In this document: one piece after another, positions 45,824 through 64,000 of the stretch
Layout of the letters: each line of letters starts with the position of its first letter
Position numbering within the stretch: position 1 is the stretch's first letter
Origin: Brasilonema sp. CT11
Lineage (GTDB): Bacteria; Cyanobacteriota; Cyanobacteriia; Cyanobacteriales; Nostocaceae
DNA length: 64,000 nucleotides
NCBI RefSeq assembly: GCF_017982655.1
Contig: NZ_JABXYX010000014.1
Span: forward strand, 1-64,000
Direction: 5' to 3'
Notes under the pieces: model-generated
The model's database searches: none
What the model saw: only the letters and a program-made list of their open reading frames with translations
What the model was told of the DNA's origin: nothing
Position numbers and translations under genes: made by a program

Positions 45824-47536
45824 TTAATAATGATTGCCTGCTTTGCGATGGTGAACGGCTGTCACTGCATCGGTTTTAAGTAATTTACCATTATCGACAG
45901 TTGCATACACAACCCAATGATCACCGCATTCCATGCGTTTGTTGACAGAACATTCAAGATATGCTGAGGAATCAGTGAGAACAATGCAGCCGTTATCAGC
46001 AACTTTTGTGGAGAAATTTGCAAATCTGTCTTCTCCAGGCGCAAAAGTTTTGCGGAAGTGTTTCATGTATTCTTGCTGATGACCATCAGGTAAAATATTT
46101 AAAACAAACTTACCACCCGGATACATCAAGGATTCAATTGCCCTGTCTTTGGCTATAGCAATAGTAATACCTGGTGGATTAAAAGTGGCTTGAGAAATCC
46201 AAGACCCCATCATTCCAGTAGAGACTTCTCCAAGCTTTGCTGTCACAACGCAAACTGAACCGACTATCCGACCAACAGCTTGTTCAACAGGAGTCGCAGC
46301 AGTTTGAGTCATACGCACTTTTTTGGCTTTTCTCAAGGTTTGGGCAAAGTCTGTACCTGTTTCTTCACACTGTTTGAGAAGAACATCTGAGGGTTTAAAC
46401 TTGACTTTCATAGTTTCAAACCCAAACCGATATCCCGCATCACGGAGTTTACCTTCAATGAAATCAAAAGCTTCGCCACTCCATCCATAAGAACCAAATA
46501 TCCCAGCAAGCTTGCTATTGTTACCGCTCGCCAGTACAGTACCCAAAGCAGTGTGAATGGGAGTTGGTGCGTTACCACCAATGGTGGGAGAACCAATGAT
46601 AAAACCCTCAGCTTTTTCTAGGGCTGCACGAATGTCTTCCGGGTCAGCAAACTCACAGTTGATTGATTCTACAGCCACTCCTCCCTTTGTTAAACCAAGA
46701 GCGATCGCCTGCGCCAAAGTTGCAGTATTTCCATATGCTGAAGCATAAAGTAAAGCAACGGTAATTTCGCGAGCAGTTTGAGAATGGCTCCATTGCTGAT
46801 AGGCTTGGGTAAGTTCCACTAAGCCATAGCGTACCAAGGGACCATGAAGGGTACCCAACATTCTGACTTGTAGTTCTGATATTTTCTCCAGCGCTGCTTG
46901 TACCTGAGTTGCATGAGGAGCCATCAAGCAGTCAAAATAGTAGCGCTGATCTTCTTTTAAAATGCCCCAATCTTCATCAAAGACTTCTTCACCACAGATA
47001 TGAGCACCAAATAGCTTATTAGTGTACAGTATCTGAGTTTGCTGGTCATAAGTACAAAGACCTCCAGGCCAACGAGGGCTGGGAATTGGGAGACAGCGCA
47101 AAACATGACCCTTACCTAAATCCAGAGTTTCTTTTCCCCGCATCGTCATGATGTTCAATTTTTGGTTAGGGAAAGTCGCACTCAAATCGGCAGCACTAGG
47201 AAGCGAACAAACAAAAGTCAGTTGTGGTGCTACTTCTAACAGAGCTTTGAGAGTTGCGATTCGGTTAGGATTAAAGTGACCTAGAATCACGTAATCTAAG
47301 TGTTTCAGGTCAAGAGATTGCTGTAAGGCGTCTAGAAAAATTTGTGTGAAAGTTTCTGGGGGTGGGTCAATAATTGCAGTTTTATCACCCTGTATTAAAT
47401 AGCAATTCGAGGTGGTACCTTTTGCTAGTGCGTATTCAATTTCAAACCGTAGACGTGTCCAACTACGTGCCCTTAGTACTGTCGTGTTTGTAGCGATTGG
47501 TAGAACTTGTACGTCGCGGGGATTGGGATTATTCAT
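45824..47536 (-). CDS. flv1: Flavodiiron protein, Flv1-type
   Basis: 570 residues from ATG 47536; the longer upstream frame is low-complexity. Three domains: metallo-beta-lactamase-like, flavodoxin (VALLYASAYGNTATLAQAI) and C-terminal flavin reductase (VGRIVGSVCVVTAKLGEVS). The usual HxExDH diiron ligands are replaced by HFNPNR and the central Asp by Lys (TNKLFGAH), as in Flv1/Flv2 rather than Flv3. It normally pairs with Flv3 to reduce O2 to water with NAD(P)H or ferredoxin. Placement after flv3 on the same strand resembles the heterocyst-type flv3B-flv1B pair of Anabaena, an inference from order only. Confidence 0.88.
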   Translation of the reverse strand: MNNPNPRDVQVLPIATNTTVLRARSWTRLRFEIEYALAKGTTSNCYLIQGDKTAIIDPPPETFTQIFLDALQQSLDLKHLDYVILGHFNPNRIATLKALLEVAPQLTFVCSLPSAADLSATFPNQKLNIMTMRGKETLDLGKGHVLRCLPIPSPRWPGGLCTYDQQTQILYTNKLFGAHICGEEVFDEDWGILKEDQRYYFDCLMAPHATQVQAALEKISELQVRMLGTLHGPLVRYGLVELTQAYQQWSHSQTAREITVALLYASAYGNTATLAQAIALGLTKGGVAVESINCEFADPEDIRAALEKAEGFIIGSPTIGGNAPTPIHTALGTVLASGNNSKLAGIFGSYGWSGEAFDFIEGKLRDAGYRFGFETMKVKFKPSDVLLKQCEETGTDFAQTLRKAKKVRMTQTAATPVEQAVGRIVGSVCVVTAKLGEVSTGMMGSWISQATFNPPGITIAIAKDRAIESLMYPGGKFVLNILPDGHQQEYMKHFRKTFAPGEDRFANFSTKVADNGCIVLTDSSAYLECSVNKRMECGDHWVVYATVDNGKLLKTDAVTAVHHRKAGNHY

Positions 47537-47673
47537 AGTTGTCGAGTGAGGGAGATTCTGAGATAGGGGGATGAGGAGGATGGAGGGAGAGAAGAAAGGA
47601 GAAAGGGAGAGAGGGAAGGAGGGAAGAATATTTTCCCGCACTCTCTCACTCCCACACTCCCTCGTCTTCCCTA

Positions 47674-49071
47674 TTAGTAGTAAGTGCCTACCTTGCGATG
47701 GCGAACCGCTGTGAGTCCCTCTGGTTTGGAGACTTTACCGTCAGCAACTGTACAATATAACAGCCAGTGGTCGCTGCATTCGATGCTGCTGACAATTTCA
47801 CATTCCATGTAGGCAAGAGCGTCTGTGAGAATGGGGGAACCGTTCTTGGCTGTTTGGGTTTTGACGCCAGCAAATCTGTCACCACCAGGAACTAAACGCT
47901 TGAGGAAGTGTTTCTTTAATTCTTGATAATTTCCTTCTTCCAAAACGTTAAGGACGAACTTATCACCCACTTGCATTAAAGAATCTATGGCACGATCTTT
48001 GGCGATCGCAACTGTAAATCCTAAAGGTTGCAAGCTGGCTTGAGCCACCCAGGAAGCTAGCATTGCGCCTTGGACATCACTCTTTCGGGTTGTGATAATG
48101 TAGAGTCCGTTGCTAATCCGACCCAGCGCTTTTTCTAAGTTTGCGTCGATGGACTTGATTTGCTTGATGTTGCGTTCGCGAACAAGCAATTGTCCTAAGT
48201 CTATACCTGCTTCTCTACACACTTGGTGAGTAGCTGTGCTGGGAGTTTGTTTTATGCGGATTGCTGGGAAAGCTTCCTTAATACCAAGGTCGAGAAATTT
48301 TCTGCGAAGTGGATCAATAGGTTCATCATCTCCGCCGTAGCACTCAAATAGTCCAACAACTTGCTTCTTGACGACACCTAAGAGCGAACTGATAGCAGCA
48401 TGAGCTGCAACGTTAGCACTTGGAGGCATACCGATAAGAATGCCAGCTGAGCGACCTGCAAGTTCTTGAATTTCTTGGATTTCAGCGGTGGTGAGATCCA
48501 TCACTTCAACGCCAAGCCCAGTTTTTTGCAGCCCTTCAGCAATTTCGTGGGCAAGTTCCTGACTGTGTCCGTAGTCGGAGACATAATATAAGCCGACTAT
48601 TGTTTGTGCCTGAACTTGTCTATGACTCCAAGTTTGGTAACATTCCCTGAGAATATCAAGATGGTGGTAAAGTAGGGGTCCGTGTCCATTGGCGATGATT
48701 TTAATTTTCCCAAGGTCACCCATTTTATTCATGGCATTCACGAGGGAACGGGCGTTGGGACCCATTAGGCAGTCGTAGTAAAATTTGAAGTCAGGTTCAA
48801 TGGCATCTAGATTGATGTCAAAGGTATCATCGCTGCAATAATGCATGCCAAAGGCATCGCAAGTATACAGGGTTTCGGTTTTGTGGTCGAAGCTAAATAT
48901 TGTATCGGGCCAGTGTAGGTTAGGTGCACTCACGAATTCGATTTCGTGTCCTTGACCTAGATCTACGCGATCGCCACTCTTGACAATCCGCTTAGAAAAC
49001 GGATCGTGAGTCACATTTATAGTGTAAAGTAAATATGGATTCCCCACCCTCGGTGTTGGTATAGAACCCAT
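47674..49071 (-). CDS. flv3: Flavodiiron protein Flv3-type, N-terminally truncated
   Basis: 465 residues, about 110 shorter than complete Flv3. Similarity begins near HDPFSKRIVKSGDRVDLG; the first 20 residues (from MGSIPTPRVGNPYLL) are unrelated. The second-half diiron ligands remain (NLHWPD, CDAFGMH, NGHGPLL), as do the flavodoxin (VGLYYVSDYGHSQEL) and flavin-reductase domains, but the HxExDH block is gone and no remnant lies upstream. Probably non-functional or altered. It is 137 bp upstream of flv1 in one operon. A weak ribosome site precedes the ATG. A later in-frame start is also possible. Confidence 0.8.
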   Translation of the reverse strand: MGSIPTPRVGNPYLLYTINVTHDPFSKRIVKSGDRVDLGQGHEIEFVSAPNLHWPDTIFSFDHKTETLYTCDAFGMHYCSDDTFDINLDAIEPDFKFYYDCLMGPNARSLVNAMNKMGDLGKIKIIANGHGPLLYHHLDILRECYQTWSHRQVQAQTIVGLYYVSDYGHSQELAHEIAEGLQKTGLGVEVMDLTTAEIQEIQELAGRSAGILIGMPPSANVAAHAAISSLLGVVKKQVVGLFECYGGDDEPIDPLRRKFLDLGIKEAFPAIRIKQTPSTATHQVCREAGIDLGQLLVRERNIKQIKSIDANLEKALGRISNGLYIITTRKSDVQGAMLASWVAQASLQPLGFTVAIAKDRAIDSLMQVGDKFVLNVLEEGNYQELKKHFLKRLVPGGDRFAGVKTQTAKNGSPILTDALAYMECEIVSSIECSDHWLLYCTVADGKVSKPEGLTAVRHRKVGTYY

Positions 49072-50681: not shown

Positions 50682-53600
50682 ATGACTTGTTTAGATAATT
50701 TCCAAAATCCTCTAGATGATAAATTTTCAAATTTAGTAGATCTGCTACGTTACAGAGCACAAATTCAACCAGAGCAAAGGGCTTACACTTTTCTGCGAGA
50801 TGGAGAAACTGAAGAAATCAGCTTGACTTATCGAGAACTAGATTTACAAGCACGGGCGATCGCCACCCATCTTCAGTCTTTAAAAGCTGCTGGTAAACGT
50901 GTTCTGCTACTATATCCACCAGGTCTAGACTTCATTGCTGCCTTCTTCGGATGTCTGTATGCTGGTGTTGTAGCGGTTCCAGTTTATCCACCTAAACGCA
51001 ATCAAAGTCTATCGAGACTGCAGGCGATCGCATCAGATGCTCAAATAACAATAGCACTGACTGTTAGCTCTACTCTCACCCAAATCCAAAGTCAATTTGC
51101 CCAAGAGCCAGAGTTTGCCAATATGCCATTGTTAGCTACCGATAGTATCGCTATTGGTCAGGCTGCAAACTGGCAACAAGTGCAAATAGATAGGAATACT
51201 CTAGCTTTTCTCCAGTACACTTCTGGTTCTACGGGAACGCCCAAAGGTGTAATGGTCAGTCATGGCAACCTGCTGCAAAATTCCAAGTATACGCAACAGA
51301 TATGGGAGTACAACTCACAAAGCGTCATGGTAACGTGGCTACCTGTCTTCCATGACATGGGACTGATTTATGGGGTTCTCCAACCTTTGTATCAAGGGTT
51401 TCCCTGTTACATGATGGCTCCTGTATCTTTTATTCAAAAACCGATACGATGGCTTCAGGCAATTTCGCGCTACAAAGCTACTCATAGTGGCGCTCCCAAC
51501 TTCGCCTACGAACTTTGCGTGCTTAAGACTACACCCGAAGAACGCGCCACCCTCGATTTAAGCAGCTGGCACATGACTTTAAATGGTGCCGAACCAGTCA
51601 GAGCAGACACCATCAAACAATTTACCCAAACTTTTCAATCTTGTGGTTTTGACTTAGCAACGTTTTGTCCCGGCTACGGTTTAGCAGAAGCGACCTTAGT
51701 AGTAGCTGGAGTGCAAAACCAAAAGCTACCGAGTTTCTTTCCAGTTCAAGCAAAAGCACTAGCACACAATCAGGTAATAGAGGGCAAAACTGAAGAGAAA
51801 CTACAAACTATTGTAGGATGCGGACAACCTGGAATTTATACCAAAGTAGTCATTATTCATCCCGAATTCTTAACCCAATGTGCCCCAAAAGAAATTGGGG
51901 AAATTTGGGTTTCTGGCTCTAGCGTTGCTCAAGGATATTGGCAGCGACCAGAAGAAACTAAGAAAACTTTTGGTGCTTATTTAAAAGACACCAAAGAAGG
52001 ACCGTTTATGAGAACGGGTGATTTAGGATTCTTGAGAGATGGGGAGTTGTTCATCACAGGGCGACTTAAAGATGTAATCATTATCCGGGGTCAAAACCAT
52101 TATCCCCAAGACATTGAATGGACAGTGGCGCAGAGCCACCCAGCACTGCGACCTAGTTGTGGGGCAGCTTTTATAGTGGAGGTTGAGGGTAAAGAGCAAT
52201 TGGTGGTTGTTCAAGAGGTAGAGCGCACTTGGCGGCGGAAGTTAGATGTAGAGATGGTAGTGAGATCTATCCGTAAATCTGTCTCGCTAGAACATGAGTT
52301 GCAGATTTATGCAATAGTCCTGCTCGATACCGGGAGCATTCCTAAAACTTCCAGTGGTAAGATTCAACGCTCTGCTTGCCGAAGTGCATTTTTAGAAAAA
52401 AGCTTAAAGGTGGTAGCCTCTTGGGGCGATTCGACCAGCCAAACTTCAGATCAGTCTCAAGCTAAAGCAGAATCTCTAACAAAACCAATTCAAACTAGCC
52501 AAAAATCAGATTCTCGCATTCAAAGTACCAATATCACAGTGGCACGAGATACTAGTAAAGAACGTGCCAGCAATTTGATCGAATGGCTGCGCCATTACGC
52601 CAACGAACGAATTAACTCCCAACTCATTGATGAGCGTCGGTGCATCCCACCCTACATTGTGCTCGATTTTGGAAATCATGGTATTTTAGGCATGCAGGTG
52701 CCACTCGAATATGGGGGTATCGGTCTTAGCAACTATGATACTATGCGGGTTATAGAACAACTTGGAGCGATCGACCAAACATTAGCTTCCTTTGTGGTTG
52801 TTCACAACGTTTTAGGGATTCGTCCTATACAGAACTATGCCTCAAATCCAGTTCGGGATGAACTTCTTCCCATCTTAGCCACAGGTCGCGAACTGGCTGC
52901 TTTTGCAATTACAGAACCAGAAGCAGGGTCAAATCCCCAAGCCATCTCAGCCAAAGCAATACCAGATACTAATGGTGGCTGGCTCTTACAAGGTACCAAA
53001 ATTTGGAGCGGTTCAGCAGCATGGGCAGGTGCGATTAATGTTTTTGTTCAACACCTCGATACCAACGGCAAATCTAGCGGAATCAGTGGTTTCGTTGTCC
53101 GCCAAGGAATGCGAGGTTTGCGCTCTGGAACCGAAGCCCTGACGATGGGAATGCGGGGCATGGTTCAGAATACGGTACATTTAGATGGCGTAGCCGTTGA
53201 TTCAGAACATTTGTTGGGCAATCCAGGGCAAGGAATGAAAGCTGCTCAGGATGCCATGATGTATGCTCGATTAGGTCTGGCGGCTATGAGCGTAGGCGGG
53301 ATGAAGCGCTGTGCCCAGTTGATGCTTCGCTATGCTGAACGCCGTTGCATATCAACGGGTCGCTTGCTAGATAATCCAGTAACGCTGATGCGATTGAGCG
53401 ATCTCACGGCGGCTATTACATCTGTGGAAACCCTGGTTGCCAAGGTAAGCAAGTTACTTGACGATGGGAATTTTGTTCCACCAGAAGTTTATGCAATTTG
53501 CAAGACAACTGGCCCCGAATTTTTCTGGAAGGCTGCTGATAGTCTCGTTCAACTACTAGGCGGTCGCGGTTATATTGAGACGAACATCGCACCTCAGCTC

Positions 53601-54671
53601 CTCCGCGATGCCAGAGTAATTCGCATTTTTGAAGGTCCCACCGAAACCCTACAAATGTTTGTTGGCTCCTGTGTTGTCAACAATAGTGCAAGAATACACC
53701 AATTTCTCAGTAAGGAACTGGCAGCATCAACAATTTCTGATCGCTTGAGAGTAGCTGTAGAACAAATTCGCGATCGCTACACCCAAGCTCAGGCTCCCTT
53801 TCCAGACCAAATCTCCGCAACCCGCTGGGGATATCTGCTGATCGGCGAACTCGTCTCCTTTGCCGTTCTGTGGGCTGTAACTCAACAGGCATTTGAGCAA
53901 GTACAATCAGAACCCCTACGCCGTGCTGTTGAGTGGACACAACTTCACTTTCAACGAAAGCTCGAAACAGCCCTGCGTGTTACCCCGGCTGAATCTATCC
54001 TATCAGGTGCAGATGCCATTAGTGAGATCATATTGGATTATACAGAAGCGATCGGCAATATTGAACAAACCCTCCCAGGCGAAGACCATGAACTAGATGA
54101 ACTGCTACGGCAAGACCGTTCTATAATCAGTTGGGATCAAAAATCCAACAACCAGGTAGAAATTTCTACCCCTATTGAAATGCCCAAGGCTGTAGAGGAT
54201 AGCTCTGCTGAGTTTCAACATATCTATCTCCATACAGGCGAGACGATTCAGAACTGGATAGAAAATTGGCTGGTCAAAAAATTAAAAATTGATGTCAAAT
54301 TAGTGAACTCTAGTCAATCGTTTGCGGAGTATGGCATGGATTCAGTAATGGTGGTGGAATTATCACAGGACTTAGAAGACTGGTTAGGACAAGCTCTAGA
54401 ACTCGAAGCTACAATTGCCTGGAACTTTCCCACAACTGAAGCTTTAGCGCATTATATAGCTAGCAAACTCAGCATATCAAAACAAACTTCTCAAGTAAAT
54501 TCACAGCAACGGTTCAACAGTGAAATCGAAAGCTCCAAGAACTTAGGACTGAAATCTCCAGAATCTAATAAGCAGATTGCAAAAGTTTTAACGGATATAG
54601 AAACACTCTCTGAAGAGGAGCTAGCTAAATTACTCAGCGAGGAGATAGCAGTAAATAAAAAGAGAAAATAG
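50682..54671 (+). CDS. FAAL-acyl-CoA dehydrogenase-ACP fusion, lipopeptide starter enzyme
   Basis: 1329 residues. A fatty acyl-AMP ligase (about 1-590) has TSGSTGTPKGVMVSH at about 180-194 and a FAAL-type PVFHDMGLIYG region. A Ser/Thr-rich linker leads to an acyl-CoA dehydrogenase domain (about 628-1110) with ITEPEAGSNPQA and IFEGPTETLQ carrying the catalytic Glu near 984. An acyl carrier domain ends the enzyme core, with phosphopantetheine Ser about 1221 in YGMDSVMVVE, followed by a charged tail (EELAKLLSEEIA) that may dock with the next protein. It probably activates a fatty acid, loads it on its own ACP and may introduce a double bond. A megasynthase gene follows 59 bp downstream. Confidence 0.88.
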   Translation: MTCLDNFQNPLDDKFSNLVDLLRYRAQIQPEQRAYTFLRDGETEEISLTYRELDLQARAIATHLQSLKAAGKRVLLLYPPGLDFIAAFFGCLYAGVVAVPVYPPKRNQSLSRLQAIASDAQITIALTVSSTLTQIQSQFAQEPEFANMPLLATDSIAIGQAANWQQVQIDRNTLAFLQYTSGSTGTPKGVMVSHGNLLQNSKYTQQIWEYNSQSVMVTWLPVFHDMGLIYGVLQPLYQGFPCYMMAPVSFIQKPIRWLQAISRYKATHSGAPNFAYELCVLKTTPEERATLDLSSWHMTLNGAEPVRADTIKQFTQTFQSCGFDLATFCPGYGLAEATLVVAGVQNQKLPSFFPVQAKALAHNQVIEGKTEEKLQTIVGCGQPGIYTKVVIIHPEFLTQCAPKEIGEIWVSGSSVAQGYWQRPEETKKTFGAYLKDTKEGPFMRTGDLGFLRDGELFITGRLKDVIIIRGQNHYPQDIEWTVAQSHPALRPSCGAAFIVEVEGKEQLVVVQEVERTWRRKLDVEMVVRSIRKSVSLEHELQIYAIVLLDTGSIPKTSSGKIQRSACRSAFLEKSLKVVASWGDSTSQTSDQSQAKAESLTKPIQTSQKSDSRIQSTNITVARDTSKERASNLIEWLRHYANERINSQLIDERRCIPPYIVLDFGNHGILGMQVPLEYGGIGLSNYDTMRVIEQLGAIDQTLASFVVVHNVLGIRPIQNYASNPVRDELLPILATGRELAAFAITEPEAGSNPQAISAKAIPDTNGGWLLQGTKIWSGSAAWAGAINVFVQHLDTNGKSSGISGFVVRQGMRGLRSGTEALTMGMRGMVQNTVHLDGVAVDSEHLLGNPGQGMKAAQDAMMYARLGLAAMSVGGMKRCAQLMLRYAERRCISTGRLLDNPVTLMRLSDLTAAITSVETLVAKVSKLLDDGNFVPPEVYAICKTTGPEFFWKAADSLVQLLGGRGYIETNIAPQLLRDARVIRIFEGPTETLQMFVGSCVVNNSARIHQFLSKELAASTISDRLRVAVEQIRDRYTQAQAPFPDQISATRWGYLLIGELVSFAVLWAVTQQAFEQVQSEPLRRAVEWTQLHFQRKLETALRVTPAESILSGADAISEIILDYTEAIGNIEQTLPGEDHELDELLRQDRSIISWDQKSNNQVEISTPIEMPKAVEDSSAEFQHIYLHTGETIQNWIENWLVKKLKIDVKLVNSSQSFAEYGMDSVMVVELSQDLEDWLGQALELEATIAWNFPTTEALAHYIASKLSISKQTSQVNSQQRFNSEIESSKNLGLKSPESNKQIAKVLTDIETLSEEELAKLLSEEIAVNKKRK

Positions 54672-54730
54672 AATTAATCAAGTTATGAATTTTTATCCTA
54701 GCATCAGTAAAATTACATAAAAAGAATGAT

Positions 54731-57700
54731 ATGACTGGTACTTCAAATAATATAAACTATCGACAATTATTAAAAAATGCATATTTAGAGCTAACAGATA
54801 TGCGTTCTCAACTTGATGCTATTGAGCAAGCAAGAACAGAACCAATTGCTATTGTCGGTATGGGGTGCCGCTTTCCGGGAGATGCAAATAATCCAGAAGC
54901 ATTTTGGAATCTTTTGTACGAGGGAAGACATGCAACGCAAGAAGTACCATCAAATCGCTGGGATATTGATTTTTACTATGACCCAGATCCCGATGTACCA
55001 GGGAAGATGTACACGCGGTACGGTGGATTTTTAGATGAGGTAGACAAGTTCGATCCCCAGTTCTTTGGGATTTCTCCACGAGAAGCGACAAGTATAGACC
55101 CCCAGCAGCGGTTGCTTCTAGAGGTAACATGGGAGGCATTAGAAAACGCCTCAATTGCAGTAGAAAGTTTGAGAGGGAGCAAAACAGGAGTATTTATTGG
55201 AGTTGGCTTTGATGACTATTCACAATTAAGCATAAACTCTGGCGACCCGACCTGTATTGATGCTTACACGCTATTAGGTAATAGCCAAAGTATTGCTGTT
55301 GGTCGTTTGTCATACATCTTGGGTCTACAAGGCCCTACTATGCAACTAGATACTACCTGTTCTTCTTCGCTACTGGGAGTTCATTTAGCATGCTCCAGTC
55401 TGCGTTCAAGAGAGTGTAATCTCGCCATAGCGGGTGGGGTAAACTTGATGCTCTCGCCAACAACTACAATTGGCTTTTGCAAGCTGAAAGCTTTAGCTGC
55501 TGACGGACGCTGCAAAAGCTTCGATGCTGGTGCTGATGGCTACGTGCGGGGAGAAGGGTGTGGGATCATAGTGCTGAAGCGTCTGAGTGAAGCGATCGCA
55601 GACGGCGATAATATTTTAGCTCTGATTAAAGGTTCGGCGGTCAATCACGATGGTCAGAGCAATGGACTCACGGCTCCCAACGGTTCGGCTCAAGAAGCGG
55701 TAATTCGTCAAGCATTGTTCAATGCTGGGGTAGAGCCAACTCAGATCCAATATGTAGAAGCTCATGGAACGGGGACACCTTTGGGAGACCCCATCGAAGT
55801 GTTAGCCTTGGCAAAGGTATTAGCTCAAGGACGCTTAGAGAGCGATCGCCTAGCGATTGGTTCGGTAAAAACCAATATTGGTCATTTAGAAGCAGCAGCC
55901 GGGATAGCAAGTCTCATGAAAGTAGTGCTTGCTCTCCAGCACAAGTTAATCCCACCCACTTTACATCTGCAACAGCCGAATCCCTACATTCCTTGGCAGC
56001 AACTCCCGATTGAAGTGCCAACTGTGCTTACTCCTTGGTCTGCAAAACAACAGCCTCGTCTGGCTGGGGTCAGTTCATTTGGCATGAGTGGGACTAATGT
56101 GCATTTAATTTTAGAAGAAACACCAATAAAAAGTCAAAATTCAAGTTACGCTTCCAGCGCACCAAAGGTGCGACTCAAAAGTCAAAATGAAGATGTTATT
56201 GAGCGTCCTTACCACCTACTCACCCTCTCTGCAAAAAGTGAGTTGGCTCTGCAAGTTCTTTCCAACCGTTATCAAACTTATCTGAAGTCTAATCCGGAAG
56301 CATTCATAGCAGATGTGTGTTTGACGGCGAATACCGGGCGATCGCATTTTGCCCACCGCCTCGCTGTCGTAGCGCGAACAACCGCAGAGTTGGGCGAAAA
56401 GTTGAGCGCGATCGCTGCTGGTAACGAAACTGTTGGACTGGTAAGCGGACAAGTATCTAGAAAACGTCCGAAAATAGCGTTTTTATTCACGGGTCAGGGT
56501 TCCCAATATATCAATATGGGACGCGAACTCTACGACACTCACCCCATTTTCCGTCAAACATTGGATCAGTGTGATGAAATTCTTCGCCCATTCCTGGAGC
56601 ATTCACTGTTAGAAGTACTCTATCCTCCTCAAGTAGGGGAGCTGGGGAGCTGGGAAGGTGGGGAGAAGTTTGTTGAAAATTCTCCCTCATCTTCCTCATC
56701 CATGCCTATTGATCAAACCGCTTATACCCAAGCTGCGCTGTTTGCTTTTGAATATGCCCTGTATCAATTGTGGAAATCTTGGGGGATTGAACCAGATGTG
56801 GTTATGGGTCATAGCGTTGGGGAATATGTTGCGGCAACTGTAGCAGGGGTTTTTAGTCTGGAAGATGGACTCAAACTCATCGCCCGTCGAGGACAGTTGA
56901 TGCAGCAGCTGCCACCGGGAGGCGAGATGGTTTCGCTGATTGCATCCGTTGAGGAAGTGCAGCATATTATAGCACCATTACAAGACAAAGTGGCGATCGC
57001 AGCCATCAATGGGCCGGAAAGTGTAGTGATTTCGGGAGCTAGTGAAGACATTGGTACTATTTGCCACCAGTTAGAAGCACAGGGAATCAAGACGAAGCGT
57101 TTACAAGTATCCCATGCCTTCCATTCCCCGCTGATGACACCAATGTTGAAGGAGTTTGAGCAAGTAGCCAATCATGTCACCTACAAACAGCCCGAGATTC
57201 CATTAGTATCCAATGTCACTGGACAACTAGCTGACGAGCAGATTACCACAGCGGAATACTGGGTAAGTCATGCGTGCCAAACGGTACGGTTTGCCACTAG
57301 TATGCAGACATTACATCAGCAAGGGTATGAAGTCTTCTTAGAGATTGGAGCCAAGCCGATTTTGTTGAGTATGGGTCGTCAATGCTTACCAGATAACGAG
57401 TGTTTTTGGCTACCTTCTTTACGTACAGAAATACCAGAATGGCAACAACTGCTTTCTAGCTTGAGTCAATTATACGTTCAAGGAGTCAAAATTGATTGGT
57501 TAGGGTTTGAGGGAGACTCTCCGCACGCGAAAGTTGTACTACCGACTTATCCGTTTCAAAGACAGCGCTATTGGATTCAACAAGTAGAACAAACAATGAA
57601 TGAAAAAGACTTGGCTGTAAATGGCAACAAACAGAAGTCAAAGTTAGATGCGACTCCCACACCTAGCAGACGAGAAGAAATTTTAGCTACATTACAAGCC

Positions 57701-60700
57701 TTAGTCGGGAATTTACTGCAAGTTTCCCCATTAGATGTTAACATTCATGCTCCTTTTCTGGAAATGGGTGCAGATTCTATTATTCTCGTTGACGCCGTGC
57801 GTCAGATAGAAAACACCTATGACATCAAAATTACAATTCGTCAGTTATTTGAAGAGTTGACAACTATTTATACATTAGCTACGTACATAAACCAAAATTT
57901 ATCTTCACAATGGGTTGAGCCATCGCCTCAACGATCTAATTTAAACGTACAACCACAGCAGCCAGAGCAACTAACCTCTGCTCACTCAACTCCTGAATCG
58001 AGCCTTCATAGTAAACAGGATTCTGAAGACAAAGGAACAATATCGTCTGAGACAACCTTAGAACGAATTATGACGCAGCAGATCCAAGCTATGTCTCAGT
58101 TAATGTCTCAGCAATTAGAGGTTTTGGGCGGCAACGGTTCGACTTCAAAAAGTTCATTGTCATCCCATGAACAGTTTCAATCCACTCCAGCTATAACGCC
58201 TGCTGTTGATTCGCAAAAGAAAGAGCAACACAACCAAATCTCTGAAGCAACATTTTCCTCGACAAGAGCCAAGCCGGAGCTAAAGCAACCCTCACCTCAG
58301 GTATTTTCACCTCTTTCTTCTCCAGGCGCAGATATTCAGGCAAATGTACTCAGTCTGCGACAACAACATCATATAGAAATACTGAGCGATCATTATAACA
58401 AGCGCCATCGAAAATCAAAACAGCTTGCACAAAGCTATCGTCCGGTACTAGCTGATAGCAGAGCTACAGCTGGGTTCCGTCTCTCCATTAAGGAGATGGT
58501 TTATCCTATCGCTGGAGAGCGAGCGGAAGGTTCTAGATTTTGGGATGTGGACGGGAATGAGTATGTAGATATCACTATGGGATTCGGGGTGCTTCTTTTT
58601 GGACATGATCCACAGTTCGTTACTGAAGCTGTTGAAAAGCACTATCAACAAGGTTTAAAAATTGGTCCACAGTCTAAGTTAGCAGGAGAAGTTGCCCAGT
58701 TAATTTGCGAACTGACTGGTATGGAGCGTGTTACTTTCTGTAATTCAGGTACAGAAGCAGTGATGACAGCGCTACGTCTAGCACGCTCGGCGACAGGTCG
58801 TAGTAAAATTGCTTTATTTGCTGGTTCCTATCACGGTCAGTTTGATGGAATCTTAGCCACAGCGTTAGAGGGTAAGATTAAAGCTGTACCCCTGGCTTCA
58901 GGAGTATCTCAGAACTTTGTTGAAAATGTTTTAGTACTGGATTATGGAAATCCAAAATCTATTGAGATTTTGCAAGTCCATGCTCAAGAATTAGCTGCTG
59001 TATTGGTTGAGCCTGTGCAGAGCCGCCGACCGGATTTACAGCCCAAAGAGTTTTTACAGCAGTTAAGGCAATTGACTCAAGCATCAGGAACAGCACTGAT
59101 TTTTGATGAAGTTCTCACAGGGTTTCGGATACATTCAGGTGGGGCACAAACATGGTTTGGCGTTAAAGCAGATATTGTCACCTATGGAAAAATTATTGGC
59201 GGTGGGACTCCAATAGGAGTGGTAGCAGGGAAAGCCACCTACATGAATGGAATTGATGGTGGTTTGTGGAACTATGGAGATGCTTCGTATCCACAAGCAG
59301 AAAAGATATTTTTTGCCGGAACCTTCAATAAAAATCACACAGGCATGGTTGCGGCATTAGCAGTGCTTCAGCATCTCAAGAAACAAGGCCCTAAACTTCA
59401 GCAGCAGTTAAATCAGCGCACATCGCAGTTAGCCCAAACACTTAACTCTTACTTTGAAGAAGAAGATGTGCCCATCCGCATTGTGCATTTTGGATCGCTG
59501 TTTCGTTTTGCTTTCTCAGGAAATCTAGATTTATTTTTTTATCATTTAATTGACAAAGGTGTTTATATCTGGGAAGGGCGTAACTGTTTTCTTTCTACAG
59601 CACATACTGATGCGGATATTAATTATGTTATCCAAGCAGTCAAAGATAGTGTCAAGGAACTGCGGAATGGTGGTTTTTTCCAGTCAGGTTTAAGCGAGTT
59701 ACTAACAACAAATAAGATCACTAGTGGAACATCAAGCGATTTGATACCAGCCCTTTCGGATAAAAACTTTACGCCATCCGCCTTCTCAGATACGCAACAA
59801 ACAATTGATGCAGAAGCCAGTGAGGAATTGACACATCTAAGGGTAAGTCGAGACGAGTGCCATCTCAGAGATTATATGCCTACCCCCTCAGAGATTGGCG
59901 ATCGCCTTGTGTCGGAGTTCAATCAAGTAACTTGCCAACAAAATGTCAAAGTTTATGGAGAAGCAGTAGCTCAGTTGGAAGCTCTAAGCATTACCTATGT
60001 TTTGAGAGCATTCCAGCAAATGGGATGGGAATTTCAACCTTCCGGACGCTTCTCAACAAAATTTATTGCAGAGCAATTAGGCATCATTGAGCAGCACCAA
60101 CGGTTGCTGGAGCGCTTACTGGAGATGTTGGTAGAAGAAAAAGTGCTACATCAAGTAGATGATCATTGGGAAGTCACTCAGGTAGTAGAGATTCAAAACC
60201 CACAAGCACAAGAAATTGCATTTTTGGCTCAATACCCAGAAGTAGAAGTAGAACTGACCTTGCTCCAGCGTTGTGGTCAGAAACTCGCACAAGTTTTACA
60301 GGGAGAGTGCCACCCATTGGAGTTGTTGTTCCCAAAGGGTAATTCAACCGCGTTAACCAAACTATATCAGGATTCGCCTGGGTCTCAAGTGATGAACACC
60401 TTGGTGCAAAAGGCAGTTTCTGGAGTACTGGAGCGTTTACCACAGGAATGCAGGGTGCGAATTCTGGAAATTGGCGGCGGAACTGGGGGAACAACATCCT
60501 ATATTCTGCCTCAACTGCCAGACCATCAGGCAGAATACGTGTTTACCGATCTCTCCGCTGTGTTGATTTCCAAAGCTCAAAAGAAATTCGGCGACTATCC
60601 ATTTGTATGCTGTCAGATTTTAGACATCGAGCAAGATCCTAAAACACAGACGGATGAATTTCGTCAGTACGATTTGATCATAGCGGCTAATGTGTTGCAT

Positions 60701-63700
60701 GCTACCAAGGATTTGCGTCAGACATTAAAGCATATACAGCAGTTGTTAGTTCCAGGCGGGCTGCTAGTACTGTTAGAAGTAACCGTTCGCCAGCGCTGGT
60801 TGGATTTGACATTCGGGTTGACAGAAGGTTGGTGGAAGTTTGCCGATCTAGATTTGAGACCATCTCACCCTTTGCTTTCTCCTTACCAATGGCAGGATCT
60901 ATTAAAGGAAAGTCAATTTAAAGAAGTTGTAACTATTCCTGATAACCAACAGCAGGTAGGAATTCTATCCAAACAAACTGTCATCATAGCATCGGCTGCA
61001 TCTGAAGTTACTCTCACTGAAGCTCAAAAGCAACTCTGGATATTAGCTCAGTTGGGAGAAGATAGCTCAGTTGCCTATAACGAATCTGTAACGTTGCAAT
61101 TACGAGGTTCGTTGAACGCAACAGCAATAAACAAGGCGATACAGAAACTAGTTGACCGCCACGAGGCACTGCGAACGAAAATCAGCCCCAAGGGGGATGT
61201 GCAAGAAGTATTACCTACTTTCAAAGTCGATTGTCCTGTATTAGATTTCAGTTGTGTAGAGGGTGATCGCACTGTTAAAGTCGCCCAGTGGCTCGACCAA
61301 GAAAGCCAAAAACCCTTTGATCTGACTCAGGGTTCTCTGTTGCGTGTGCATCTGCTCAAATTAGAGCCAGAAATCCATTTATTGGTTTTGAGCGCTCATC
61401 ATATCGTCATTGATGGCTGGTCAATAGGAGTCATTCTCCGAGAATTGGGGGCTTTGTATTCAGCCGAGTCTCAAGGAATGGTTTGCCACCAGAATCCCCC
61501 GAAACAATTTCGGGAATACATAGAGTGGCAAAATCAGCATTGCCAGATGCAGGAGATGAAAACTCACCAATCCTACTGGTTAGAGAAATTGACCGCACCT
61601 CCTGTTTTAGACTTACCCACTGACCGCACTCGCCCACCCATACAAACGTATAACAGCAGTCGGAAAACCATAACGCTTGATGCTCAAGTGACCACCAACC
61701 TCAAACTGTTCAGTCGGCAACAGGGTTGCACCTTATTAATGACCCTGCTGTCGGTTTACATGACGTTAATTCACCGCCTCACGGGACAGAACGATATTAT
61801 TATTGGAGTTCCGACATCTGGGCGATCGCTCTTGGGGGGTGAGGGAATGGTTGGTTACTGTGCCCATTTATTACCGATACGCAGTCAGTTGACGGGTAAT
61901 CCTACGTTTGGAGAATATCTTAAACAGATGCGGGGTGTTTTATTAGAAGCTTACGAACACCAAGATTACCCCTTTGCCCAATTGCTAAATCAACTGAACC
62001 TACCAAGGGATACTAGTCGTTCTCCCTTGGTTGACGTGAGCTTGAATTTAGAGCCGCCGATTAATCTGCCACAGATGTCTCAACTGGACGTTAGCTTATC
62101 GCCTCCAGTCGTTAAATTTAAGGATCTGGATCTCTCTTTAAATGTCGCAGAGATAGCAGGTGAGCTATTAGTTGAATGTGATTATAATACCGACTTATTC
62201 AATGCAGACACCATTGGGCGTTGGCTGAGTCATTTCCAGACTTTGCTGCAAGCAATTGTCACCCAGCCAAAACAACATCTGAGAGAATTACCTCTACTGA
62301 CTGCTGACCAACGGCATCAGTTATTAGTCGAGTGGAATGATACTCAAGCTGAGTATCCCTTTGATAAGTGTATCCATCAGTTGTTTGAGTCACAGGTTGA
62401 GCGCACCCCCGATGCAGTGGCGGTGGTGTTTGAAAATCAACAACTTACCTACCGCGAGTTGAATTGTCGTGCTAATCAATTGGCGCATTACTTGCAAATT
62501 TTGGGTGTGGGAGCTTCGGTGCTGGTAGGGTTGTGTGTGGAACGTTCACTGTTAATGGTGGTGGGACTTTTGGGCATTCTCAAAGCAGGTGGGGCTTATG
62601 TGCCACTTGACCCAGAGTATCCCCAAGAGCGTTTGAACTTTATGCTCGAAGATGCTCAAGTTCAAGTGCTGCTGACTCAACAGCCACTCCTTGAGAGACT
62701 ACCTGAGCATCACGCGCCGCTTGTCTGTTTGGATACTGATTGGCAACTTATCTCCCAGTCGAGCGCTCTTGACTTGGTTAATAGTACCATCCCAAAAAAT
62801 TTAGCATATATAATTTATACTTCTGGTTCTACAGGTCAGCCTAAAGGAGTAATGATTCAACATCACTCCCTAATTAATATTACGCAGACAGCAATTGTTG
62901 AATATGGATTAAGCAATAGCGATCGCTCACTCCAGTTTTCCTCTATTAGTTTCGATGTGGCGGCAGCAGAAATCTATCCCTGCCTGAGTTGCGGTGCAAC
63001 CTTAGTGTTGCGAACCGATGAAATGTTGAGTTCTGTACAGATGTTTATCGAAAAATGCAGGGATTGGGATTTAACAGTGTTAGACTTGCCAACAGCATAC
63101 TGGTATCAGGTAACTACTGAATTAGCCAATGCCAATTTGCTGTTACCTGATTCCATCCGGCTGGTAACTATTGGCGGAGAGCGTCTGCTCAAGCAACAAT
63201 TAAGAATCTGGCAGCAACATATAGGTGAGTATCCTCAGCTAATAAACGCATATGGTCCGACTGAAACGACTGTAGCCGCAACGCTATGCAAATTACCGGG
63301 TTCAGCCACAACAGAAATTGATGAGCAAAACATCCCAATTGGATACCCCATCCATAATACTCAAATATACATACTAGACCAATACCTACAACTAGTCCCC
63401 ATTGGTATAGCAGGAGAACTGCACATTGGTGGTGCGGGTTTGGCACGAGGCTATCTCAACCGCCCAGAATTGACACAAGAAAAATTTATCCCTAATCCCT
63501 TTAGTACAAACTCAGATTCACGGCTTTACAAAACAGGAGATTTAGCACGCTATTTGCCTGATGGCAACATTGAGTATCTAGGACGTATTGACAACCAAGT
63601 CAAAATCCGTGGCTTCCGCATTGAGTTGGGAGAAATTGAAGCAGTACTAAACCAACATAGCAATGTGCAAACATCTTGTGTTACCGCCCGTGAAGACACG

Positions 63701-64000
63701 ACCGGGGATAAACACTTAGTCGCCTACGTGGTGCCATATCAACAGCACACACCCACAAACCGTGAACTCCGCCAGTTCCTCTCCAGTCTACTGCCTCTTT
63801 ACATGGTACCAAAAGCTTTTGTGGTACTAGAAACTTTGCCACTAACATCCAACGGCAAGGTAGACTACCGCTCCCTGCCTGCAGCAAATTTAGAATCTCA
63901 ACTGCTAGACAAATTTGTTGCCCCACATACATCAATCGAAAAAACGGTTGCACAAATTTGGGCTGATGTCCTTAAACTAGAGCAAGTAGGCATTTACGAT
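54731..64000 (+). CDS. Hybrid PKS-NRPS megasynthase, partial (KS-AT-ACP-AMT-MT-C-A...)
   Basis: Open from ATG 54731 to the window end, 3090 codons; the frame is the same at every domain checked. KS: about 35-460, active Cys210 in DTTCSSSL, His345 and His385. AT: about 580-890, GHSVGEY Ser695 and malonyl-type HAFHSP. ACP: Ser1016 in MGADSI. Aminotransferase: about 1243-1655, PLP Lys1487 in YGKIIGGG. Methyltransferase: about 1710-2090, ILEIGGGTGG. Condensation: about 2095-2530, HHIVIDG. Adenylation: about 2545-3010, IIYTSGSTGQPKG. PCP begins at the edge. No KR/DH/ER, so the beta-keto group would be transaminated, giving a beta-amino fatty acyl start of a lipopeptide, as in puwainaphycin/laxaphycin/iturin-type pathways. 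Confidence 0.92.
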   Translation, partial: MTGTSNNINYRQLLKNAYLELTDMRSQLDAIEQARTEPIAIVGMGCRFPGDANNPEAFWNLLYEGRHATQEVPSNRWDIDFYYDPDPDVPGKMYTRYGGFLDEVDKFDPQFFGISPREATSIDPQQRLLLEVTWEALENASIAVESLRGSKTGVFIGVGFDDYSQLSINSGDPTCIDAYTLLGNSQSIAVGRLSYILGLQGPTMQLDTTCSSSLLGVHLACSSLRSRECNLAIAGGVNLMLSPTTTIGFCKLKALAADGRCKSFDAGADGYVRGEGCGIIVLKRLSEAIADGDNILALIKGSAVNHDGQSNGLTAPNGSAQEAVIRQALFNAGVEPTQIQYVEAHGTGTPLGDPIEVLALAKVLAQGRLESDRLAIGSVKTNIGHLEAAAGIASLMKVVLALQHKLIPPTLHLQQPNPYIPWQQLPIEVPTVLTPWSAKQQPRLAGVSSFGMSGTNVHLILEETPIKSQNSSYASSAPKVRLKSQNEDVIERPYHLLTLSAKSELALQVLSNRYQTYLKSNPEAFIADVCLTANTGRSHFAHRLAVVARTTAELGEKLSAIAAGNETVGLVSGQVSRKRPKIAFLFTGQGSQYINMGRELYDTHPIFRQTLDQCDEILRPFLEHSLLEVLYPPQVGELGSWEGGEKFVENSPSSSSSMPIDQTAYTQAALFAFEYALYQLWKSWGIEPDVVMGHSVGEYVAATVAGVFSLEDGLKLIARRGQLMQQLPPGGEMVSLIASVEEVQHIIAPLQDKVAIAAINGPESVVISGASEDIGTICHQLEAQGIKTKRLQVSHAFHSPLMTPMLKEFEQVANHVTYKQPEIPLVSNVTGQLADEQITTAEYWVSHACQTVRFATSMQTLHQQGYEVFLEIGAKPILLSMGRQCLPDNECFWLPSLRTEIPEWQQLLSSLSQLYVQGVKIDWLGFEGDSPHAKVVLPTYPFQRQRYWIQQVEQTMNEKDLAVNGNKQKSKLDATPTPSRREEILATLQALVGNLLQVSPLDVNIHAPFLEMGADSIILVDAVRQIENTYDIKITIRQLFEELTTIYTLATYINQNLSSQWVEPSPQRSNLNVQPQQPEQLTSAHSTPESSLHSKQDSEDKGTISSETTLERIMTQQIQAMSQLMSQQLEVLGGNGSTSKSSLSSHEQFQSTPAITPAVDSQKKEQHNQISEATFSSTRAKPELKQPSPQVFSPLSSPGADIQANVLSLRQQHHIEILSDHYNKRHRKSKQLAQSYRPVLADSRATAGFRLSIKEMVYPIAGERAEGSRFWDVDGNEYVDITMGFGVLLFGHDPQFVTEAVEKHYQQGLKIGPQSKLAGEVAQLICELTGMERVTFCNSGTEAVMTALRLARSATGRSKIALFAGSYHGQFDGILATALEGKIKAVPLASGVSQNFVENVLVLDYGNPKSIEILQVHAQELAAVLVEPVQSRRPDLQPKEFLQQLRQLTQASGTALIFDEVLTGFRIHSGGAQTWFGVKADIVTYGKIIGGGTPIGVVAGKATYMNGIDGGLWNYGDASYPQAEKIFFAGTFNKNHTGMVAALAVLQHLKKQGPKLQQQLNQRTSQLAQTLNSYFEEEDVPIRIVHFGSLFRFAFSGNLDLFFYHLIDKGVYIWEGRNCFLSTAHTDADINYVIQAVKDSVKELRNGGFFQSGLSELLTTNKITSGTSSDLIPALSDKNFTPSAFSDTQQTIDAEASEELTHLRVSRDECHLRDYMPTPSEIGDRLVSEFNQVTCQQNVKVYGEAVAQLEALSITYVLRAFQQMGWEFQPSGRFSTKFIAEQLGIIEQHQRLLERLLEMLVEEKVLHQVDDHWEVTQVVEIQNPQAQEIAFLAQYPEVEVELTLLQRCGQKLAQVLQGECHPLELLFPKGNSTALTKLYQDSPGSQVMNTLVQKAVSGVLERLPQECRVRILEIGGGTGGTTSYILPQLPDHQAEYVFTDLSAVLISKAQKKFGDYPFVCCQILDIEQDPKTQTDEFRQYDLIIAANVLHATKDLRQTLKHIQQLLVPGGLLVLLEVTVRQRWLDLTFGLTEGWWKFADLDLRPSHPLLSPYQWQDLLKESQFKEVVTIPDNQQQVGILSKQTVIIASAASEVTLTEAQKQLWILAQLGEDSSVAYNESVTLQLRGSLNATAINKAIQKLVDRHEALRTKISPKGDVQEVLPTFKVDCPVLDFSCVEGDRTVKVAQWLDQESQKPFDLTQGSLLRVHLLKLEPEIHLLVLSAHHIVIDGWSIGVILRELGALYSAESQGMVCHQNPPKQFREYIEWQNQHCQMQEMKTHQSYWLEKLTAPPVLDLPTDRTRPPIQTYNSSRKTITLDAQVTTNLKLFSRQQGCTLLMTLLSVYMTLIHRLTGQNDIIIGVPTSGRSLLGGEGMVGYCAHLLPIRSQLTGNPTFGEYLKQMRGVLLEAYEHQDYPFAQLLNQLNLPRDTSRSPLVDVSLNLEPPINLPQMSQLDVSLSPPVVKFKDLDLSLNVAEIAGELLVECDYNTDLFNADTIGRWLSHFQTLLQAIVTQPKQHLRELPLLTADQRHQLLVEWNDTQAEYPFDKCIHQLFESQVERTPDAVAVVFENQQLTYRELNCRANQLAHYLQILGVGASVLVGLCVERSLLMVVGLLGILKAGGAYVPLDPEYPQERLNFMLEDAQVQVLLTQQPLLERLPEHHAPLVCLDTDWQLISQSSALDLVNSTIPKNLAYIIYTSGSTGQPKGVMIQHHSLINITQTAIVEYGLSNSDRSLQFSSISFDVAAAEIYPCLSCGATLVLRTDEMLSSVQMFIEKCRDWDLTVLDLPTAYWYQVTTELANANLLLPDSIRLVTIGGERLLKQQLRIWQQHIGEYPQLINAYGPTETTVAATLCKLPGSATTEIDEQNIPIGYPIHNTQIYILDQYLQLVPIGIAGELHIGGAGLARGYLNRPELTQEKFIPNPFSTNSDSRLYKTGDLARYLPDGNIEYLGRIDNQVKIRGFRIELGEIEAVLNQHSNVQTSCVTAREDTTGDKHLVAYVVPYQQHTPTNRELRQFLSSLLPLYMVPKAFVVLETLPLTSNGKVDYRSLPAANLESQLLDKFVAPHTSIEKTVAQIWADVLKLEQVGIYD

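Follow-up and report, generated by a model that had tools for sequence, protein, structure and literature searches.

Gene content of the locus

The window analyzed here is a stretch of 64,000 nucleotides from Brasilonema sp. CT11, located at the start of contig C109 (109,811 b) of its genome (G000; 8,789,847 bases, 411 contigs). At its right end, a FAAL-ACAD-ACP fusion is followed 59 bp downstream by a KS-AT-ACP-AMT-MT-C-A protein (AMT, aminotransferase; MT, methyltransferase), an arrangement reported in an earlier note on this DNA and borne out by the ORF coordinates and Pfam (Table 1). Pfam identified AMP-binding, Acyl-CoA_dh N/M/C and PP-binding domains in the first protein, and ketoacyl-synt, Acyl_transf_1, PP-binding, Aminotran_3, HTH_51 with Methyltransf_12, Condensation and AMP-binding domains in the second, with E-values of about 1e-8 to 1e-108 for both window proteins, far beyond chance.

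The earlier note had also called for an extension to the right. The contig continues beyond the window with three further NRPS modules, a TE and tailoring genes. The TE is of type I, carries a GHSFGG motif and follows the module predicted to add Ala.

Three other features were observed on the contig. A DDE_3 transposase match, weak and below the Pfam cut-off, lies between the methyltransferase and exporter genes (78766-79146). Upstream of the cluster, the minus strand of the window encodes two adjacent flavodiiron-type proteins with ODP, flavodoxin and flavin reductase domains (45824-49071). Near the contig end and beyond the window, the minus strand carries genes for another FAAL and a small ACP (105898-109176), perhaps as part of a separate lipid-starter cluster that the contig end truncates.

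Table 1. Features of the gene cluster, in contig numbering, which is the same as that of the window.
Feature	Position	Strand or location	Basis
Loading protein FAAL-ACAD-ACP, 1329 aa	50682..54671	+	ORF list and Pfam
FAAL domain, predicted hexanoate loading	50712..52421	+	Pfam; best PDB matches FAAL-type ligases; 82.5% identity to G023 FAAL
ACAD-like domain with VLCAD/ACAD9-like C-terminal extension	52557..54131	+	Pfam; catalytic Glu in RIFEG conserved
Loading-protein ACP	54237..54461	+	Pfam; GMDS motif
PKS-NRPS hybrid, first 3090 of 4629 aa in window	54731..64000	+	ORF list and Pfam; open at window end
KS	54821..56080	+	Pfam; Cys/His/His present
AT, malonyl type	56471..57520	+	Pfam; GHSVGEY and AFHSPLM
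ACP	57671..57910	+	Pfam and motif check
Class III aminotransferase, MycA type	58451..59650	+	Pfam; nearest solved relative; motif YGKIIGGG
PKS-type C-methyltransferase (HTH_51 and MT12), CurJ type	59891..60970	+	Pfam; nearest solved relative; motifs
Condensation domain 1	60995..62335	+	Pfam; HHxxxDG
Adenylation domain 1, code DVADTGAVAK, predicted basic residue (Lys/Arg), read as Arg	62366..63880	+	Code and relatives
PCP 1, cut by window edge, runs on to contig position 64105	63917..64000	+	Domain layout
PKS-NRPS hybrid remainder: PCP, C-A2-nMT-PCP, A2 code DAWTIAAVCK	G000:C109 to 68620	+	
TubC-C-A3-PCP-C-A4-PCP-TE protein, codes DVRHFALLAK, DLFNNALTYK	G000:C109 68617-76059	outside window	
Carbamoyltransferase	G000:C109 76104-77804	outside window	
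HemK-like N-methyltransferase	G000:C109 77818-78669	outside window	
ABC exporter	G000:C109 79271-81079	outside window	

The loading protein is predicted to combine fatty acid activation and desaturation

The FAAL and ACAD motifs of the loading protein are intact (YTSGSTGTPKG and RIFEGPTE, respectively), and the whole protein is 97% identical over its full length to its counterpart in Brasilonema angustatum HA4187-MV1 (G002/L080). Its FAAL shares 82.5% identity with that of a cluster in G023 that is laid out like the laxaphycin (lxa) cluster, with FAAL-ACP, a lone KS, ten A domains, a TE and AT-ACP-AMT. For LxaA, loading of hexanoic acid has been predicted (PMC7524897). Because of this relationship, we propose a C6 starter, which together with one malonate would give a C8 unit.

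In alignments with VLCAD and ACAD9, the ACAD domain retains the catalytic Glu, and it should introduce a double bond into the starter. A search of the CT11 genome revealed no ETF, while the same search was positive in 10 of 14 control genomes. The ACAD would therefore need another electron acceptor, which may be oxygen, as used by the carrier-bound prolyl oxidase of anatoxin biosynthesis. ACADs normally yield 2-enoyl products, and 3-enoyl starters are known from friulimicin-type ACADs. The same three activities act on the starter fatty acid in rotihibin and ramoplanin loading. In rotihibin, however, FAAL, ACAD and ACP are encoded by separate genes that lead straight into an NRPS, and acyl desaturation was ascribed to the ACAD by analogy with ramoplanin (PMC8552735), whereas here a single fused protein leads into a PKS module.

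FAAL-ACAD-ACP fusions were also found ahead of quite different PKS/NRPS genes (G016:C69:49460-63767, G058:C362, G049:C21, L089 and L093) and in another PKS or NRPS setting in G021, with hosts including one gammaproteobacterial and one Polyangia MAG. The fusion thus appears to be a widespread loading unit. We found no description of it, and a keyword search of a 2025 FAAL review yielded no mention of it. A short contig of Nostoc sp. NMS4 also contains a FAAL-ACAD-ACP gene (L085 2696-6541; FAAL about 78% identical), with no PKS within its next 8 kb. In Rhizonema sp. NSF051 (L088 1035-3410, JAQYWN010000866.1), the loading protein lacks the ACAD: 541 residues are gone in frame after WGDSSSQT, leaving FAAL-ACP. 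Either this copy is a natural variant, in which case a saturated unit is expected, or the short contig was assembled wrongly.

The PKS module is predicted to build a 3-amino-2-methyl unit

The closest relative of the aminotransferase among solved structures is that of the mycosubtilin synthase MycA (538 bits), a β-amino lipopeptide enzyme. For the methyltransferase, which has an intact SAM site and the motifs NVLHAT and LLE, it is the C-methyltransferase of CurJ (372 bits). FAAL loading, an AMT-bearing PKS module and NRPS modules occur together, as in FAAL-primed β-amino acyl peptide lines. These features support the β-amino acyl start that the earlier note had deduced from a FAAL-primed PKS module with an AMT and no KR.

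In the puwainaphycin synthetase, a monooxygenase beside the aminotransferase gives a 2-hydroxy group (PMC4219810). With a C-methyltransferase in the place of this monooxygenase, the unit should be 2-methylated instead of 2-hydroxylated. The C-methyltransferase lies after the AMT, a position that is compatible with either order of methylation and amination.

Microginin (mic) clusters share with this locus the FAAL, ACP, KS-AT-ACP-AMT, a short NRPS and an N-methylated residue. A microginin-like linear peptide (β-amino acyl, aa1, N-Me-aa2, aa3, aa4), set free by hydrolysis and directed at metalloproteases, would follow the same loading and PKS logic and also have its second residue N-methylated, and a cluster in G007 with a halogenase-like gene encodes an AMT that shares 92.5% identity with the one here. 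Nonetheless, we consider such a product very unlikely, as no monooxygenase is present for the 2-hydroxy group of Ahda and a C-methyltransferase is found there, a review of the mic functions lists nothing equivalent to the carbamoyltransferase, and the predicted residues differ from the Tyr-rich C-terminus of microginins. An ACAD also takes the place of the halogenase, and mic clusters lack the carbamoyltransferase/N-methyltransferase pair. The microginin-like G007 locus itself (G007:C60:27413-52487) encodes a FAAL, an ACP, a 466-aa putative CylC-type halogenase and KS-AT-ACP-AMT-C-A, with no monooxygenase-sized stretch between AMT and C.

Adenylation domain codes predict a basic residue, N-Me-Phe, an acidic residue and Ala

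Codes were read against GrsA (1AMU), with position 278 of A3 and A4 set as H and N, respectively, by gap-free alignment around a conserved proline. This gave DVADTGAVAK for A1, DAWTIAAVCK for A2 (with nMT), DVRHFALLAK for A3 and DLFNNALTYK for A4. For calibration, we used an NRPS cluster on contig C313 of the same genome. Its modules are arranged in agreement with the anabaenopeptin cluster described from this strain, for which the product is known (PMC7503407). The six codes of the C313 cluster are DAFFLGGTFK (Val/Leu), DTEDIGSVIK (Lys), DGLFLGAVIK (Ile/Leu/Val), DASFGGCVNK (Trp), DLFNNALTYK with nMT (MeAla) and DAWTVAAVCK (Phe). The A4 code is identical to the MeAla code, and the A2 code differs by one residue from the Phe code, with an nMT in module 2, exactly at the N-Me-Phe position. 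Since these codes match those of a same-genome line of known product, A4 and A2 can be assigned to Ala and N-Me-Phe, respectively, with good confidence. A-domain codes searched for as text gave no match in the papers covered, so that A1 and A3 were read from the calibration within the genome, from solved relatives and from known codes.

A1 shares the loop LDLPTAYW and D278 with the anabaenopeptin Lys domain, and codes of the form D[AV]EDIG.. prevail among the A1 relatives of other genomes. Of the solved single-domain structures, ApnA A1, a domain that accepts both Arg and Tyr, gave the best match to A1 (640 bits, against 484 for the next). These three observations indicate that A1 is a basic-residue domain (Lys/Arg). 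The preference for Arg over Lys comes from the match to banyasin A described below and from the Arg code DVADVCAIDK; A1 could also select Lys.

A3 carries Arg239 and His278, suited to an acidic residue. The same pair is found in microcystin synthetase domains for methyl-Asp and Glu, residues that are linked via their side-chain carboxyl. A3 is thus predicted to select an acidic residue, which we infer to be Asp. Two other NRPS lines of the same genome, on contig C351 (18696-26267 and 128116-135564), end in an acidic-type A domain (DARHFSLLVK, DVRHFALLAK), a PCP and a TE; Arg239 and His278 are present in A3 and in each of these relatives.

A carbamoyltransferase and a HemK-like methyltransferase form a predicted tailoring pair

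The genes of the two tailoring enzymes lie 13 bp apart and are co-conserved. Based on its solved relatives, the carbamoyltransferase belongs to the GdmN/TobZ family. GdmN and TobZ, like most known members of this family, are O-carbamoyltransferases, and we know of no documented case of guanidine carbamoylation in it. Elsewhere, the enzymes most similar to this carbamoyltransferase (69% identity and less) are located outside NRPS clusters and therefore do not help to fix the substrate. The second enzyme matches HemK/PrmC-type families and contains the NPPF motif, a mark of enzymes that methylate planar nitrogen. An adjacent carbamoyltransferase and NPPF-type N-methyltransferase, found together in four genomes, make up a gene set for an N-methylcarbamoyl group, and the pair is predicted to act on an arginine guanidine.

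Another carbamoylated cyclic or linear peptide built on the same scaffold, for example with Lys for Arg, O-carbamoylation elsewhere or a 3-amino-2-methyl-4-enoyl unit from plain 2-desaturation, seems improbable to us. Lys-type codes among the A1 relatives, the O-carbamoyltransferase function of GdmN and TobZ and the usual 2-enoyl products of ACADs would suit it. However, none of the four modules is predicted to add a hydroxyl-bearing residue, an NPPF N-methyltransferase beside the carbamoyltransferase fits an N-methylcarbamoyl group, and the match to all published parts of banyasin A would be hard to obtain otherwise. An Adda-like 3-amino-2-methyl-4-enoyl unit, our first idea, was kept only within this alternative since banyasin A has a 5E double bond.

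A probable banyasin A-type gene cluster begins in the window

Banyasin A was described from a Nostoc bloom (Pluotno and Carmeli 2005), and its published structure is cyclo[3-amino-2-methyl-5E-octenoyl, N-methylcarbamoyl-Arg, N-Me-Phe, Asp, Ala]; four synthetic isomers made with L-residues and an α-linked Asp differed from the natural product (PMC4362330). We found no banyasin gene cluster in the papers searched: of 14 in which the name occurs, PMC4362330 alone has it more than once, while PMC10157211 has it in its reference list and PMC6835634 in a list of Nostoc peptides.

The predicted residues and their order (basic [Arg or Lys], N-Me-Phe, acidic by code, Ala), the N-methyl group at residue 2, the proposed unsaturated 2-methyl-3-amino C8 unit, the N-methylcarbamoyl group and the proposed ring closure would all fit banyasin A. 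In particular, the KR-free PKS module carries both an AMT and a C-methyltransferase, which matches the 3-amino-2-methyl unit. For the unsaturated C8 chain, the ACAD is present and intact, and the C6 length of the starter is proposed from the FAAL relative. On this basis, every biosynthetic gene would have a role in banyasin A, and every part of banyasin A a gene. Differences are the source genus (Nostoc vs Brasilonema) and an Asp linkage that may be β instead of the proposed α.

In the proposed pathway, the FAAL would activate hexanoic acid and load it onto the ACP, and the fused ACAD would desaturate the acyl-ACP. KS-AT-ACP would then add malonate to yield a 3-oxo-octenoyl chain, which the C-methyltransferase would methylate at C2 and the AMT aminate at the C3 oxo group, giving 3-amino-2-methyl-octenoyl-ACP. 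The NRPS modules would append first Arg, then N-Me-Phe, then Asp and finally Ala, after which the TE would close the ring between Ala and the β-amine. The carbamoyltransferase and the HemK-like methyltransferase would turn the Arg guanidine into an N-methylcarbamoyl guanidine, the group with which argifin binds chitinase. Export would fall to the ABC protein. For the cyclic product, C34H51N9O8, the calculated [M+H]+ is 714.393; the corresponding values are 732.404 for the linear form, 716.409 for the dihydro form, 700.378 for the form lacking the carbamoyl N-methyl and 657.372 for that lacking the carbamoyl group. Public LC-MS data of strain CT11 exist as MassIVE MSV000085797.

One tension concerns the double bond, as plain ACAD action would give a 2-enoyl starter and hence a 4-ene, whereas the 5E bond of banyasin A needs a 3-enoyl starter or an isomerization. 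Furthermore, given the lack of an E domain and the Arg/His code of A3, we hypothesize a β-linked Asp as the first correction to consider for the structure of banyasin A. By our count, the ring would have 16 atoms with α-Asp and 17 with β-Asp, and that of argifin also has 17. A 17-membered β-Asp ring, if true, would explain the mismatch of the synthetic 16-membered α-linked isomers. That a guanidine N-carbamoyltransferase with a carbamoyl N-methyltransferase, a FAAL-fused ACAD making a carrier-bound 3-enoyl starter and a β-linked Asp in banyasin A would all hold together is possible, yet on balance doubtful.

Comparison with known systems

The earlier note had predicted a cyanobacterial lipopeptide. 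Its β-amino acyl start stands, but the product is better described as a probable small cyclic carbamoylated pentapeptide with a C8 β-amino acid in the ring than as a long-chain lipopeptide of the puwainaphycin/laxaphycin type. Clusters of that type share the FAAL start and the AMT-bearing PKS module, and the FAAL is close to that of an lxa-layout cluster. In contrast, puwainaphycin has an AmT-Ox (2-hydroxy) arrangement, laxaphycin has 11-12 residues, and neither is described with an AMT-cMT (C-methyltransferase) or an ACAD.

Membership of these families was rejected in each case: for puwainaphycin, the AmT-monooxygenase (2-hydroxy) pair is missing; for laxaphycin, four modules, a fused KS, an ACAD and a cMT stand against FAAL-ACP, a separate KS, AT-ACP-AMT and an 11-12 residue product; for microginin, there is no monooxygenase, and thus no 3-amino-2-hydroxydecanoyl unit, with a C-methyltransferase instead.

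The earlier note's suggestion that the exact combination may be new agrees with the literature searched, in which we found no characterized cluster of such architecture. The new features are the ACAD fused into the loading protein, the C-methyltransferase in the place of the puwainaphycin monooxygenase, and the carbamoyl/methyl gene pair predicted to act on the arginine guanidine.

Banyasin A resembles fungal chitinase inhibitors (PMC4362330). Argifin, one of these, is likewise a cyclic pentapeptide with Arg(N-methylcarbamoyl), N-Me-Phe, an Asp-type residue and Ala, and it contains isoAsp residues (PMC3764403). Unlike banyasin A, it comes from a fungus, carries another isoAsp where banyasin A carries the β-amino C8 acid and contains D-Ala, whereas no E domain is found here.

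If our proposal is correct, this would be the gene cluster of a compound that was described in 2005 and for which the proposed structure failed on synthesis in 2015, and the true structure of banyasin A would become testable by genetics and enzymology. The tailoring pair would provide candidate enzymes, to our knowledge the first, for the N-methylcarbamoyl-arginine group of argifin, the part that makes significant contacts with the chitinase active site. Furthermore, the presence of the same cluster in Rhizonema, a lichen partner of fungi, would make a chitinase inhibitor from a photobiont a concrete question.

The cluster is conserved in four genomes

The whole cluster, with the same order and architecture, was found in B. 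angustatum HA4187-MV1 (G002), in the lichen symbiont Rhizonema sp. PD37 (G384) and in Nostoc sp. LPT (G400). An uncultured Scytonema and Rhizonema PD38 also carry its start. In all four copies, the reading frames are open and the checked catalytic motifs intact, except that a literal search missed the exact ACP/PCP strings in one copy each. Domain identity between copies is roughly 77-99%.

A silent or decaying cluster with no product is thus the least probable alternative that we considered. The weak transposase-like fragment at contig positions 78766-79146 and the in-frame loss of the ACAD part in one Rhizonema contig could be read that way, but the open frames and intact motifs of four genomes and the level of domain identity speak against it.

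Among 391 genomes of the order, full-length AMT-cMT was found in CT11, G384 and G400 (92% or more), and near-identical carbamoyltransferases (92-94%) occur elsewhere only in G384 and G400. A carbamoyltransferase above 90% identity is confined to the three genomes with an AMT-cMT above 90% identity. An AMT-cMT at 66% was found in another context in G372, also one of the 391 genomes. There (G372:C221:31564-42328), a FAAL is followed by a 486-aa protein, 2OG-oxygenase-like by eye, with a C-terminal ACP, and by KS-AT-ACP-AMT-cMT-C. This locus appears to be a further AMT-cMT line in which a different starter-modifying enzyme occupies the position of the ACAD.
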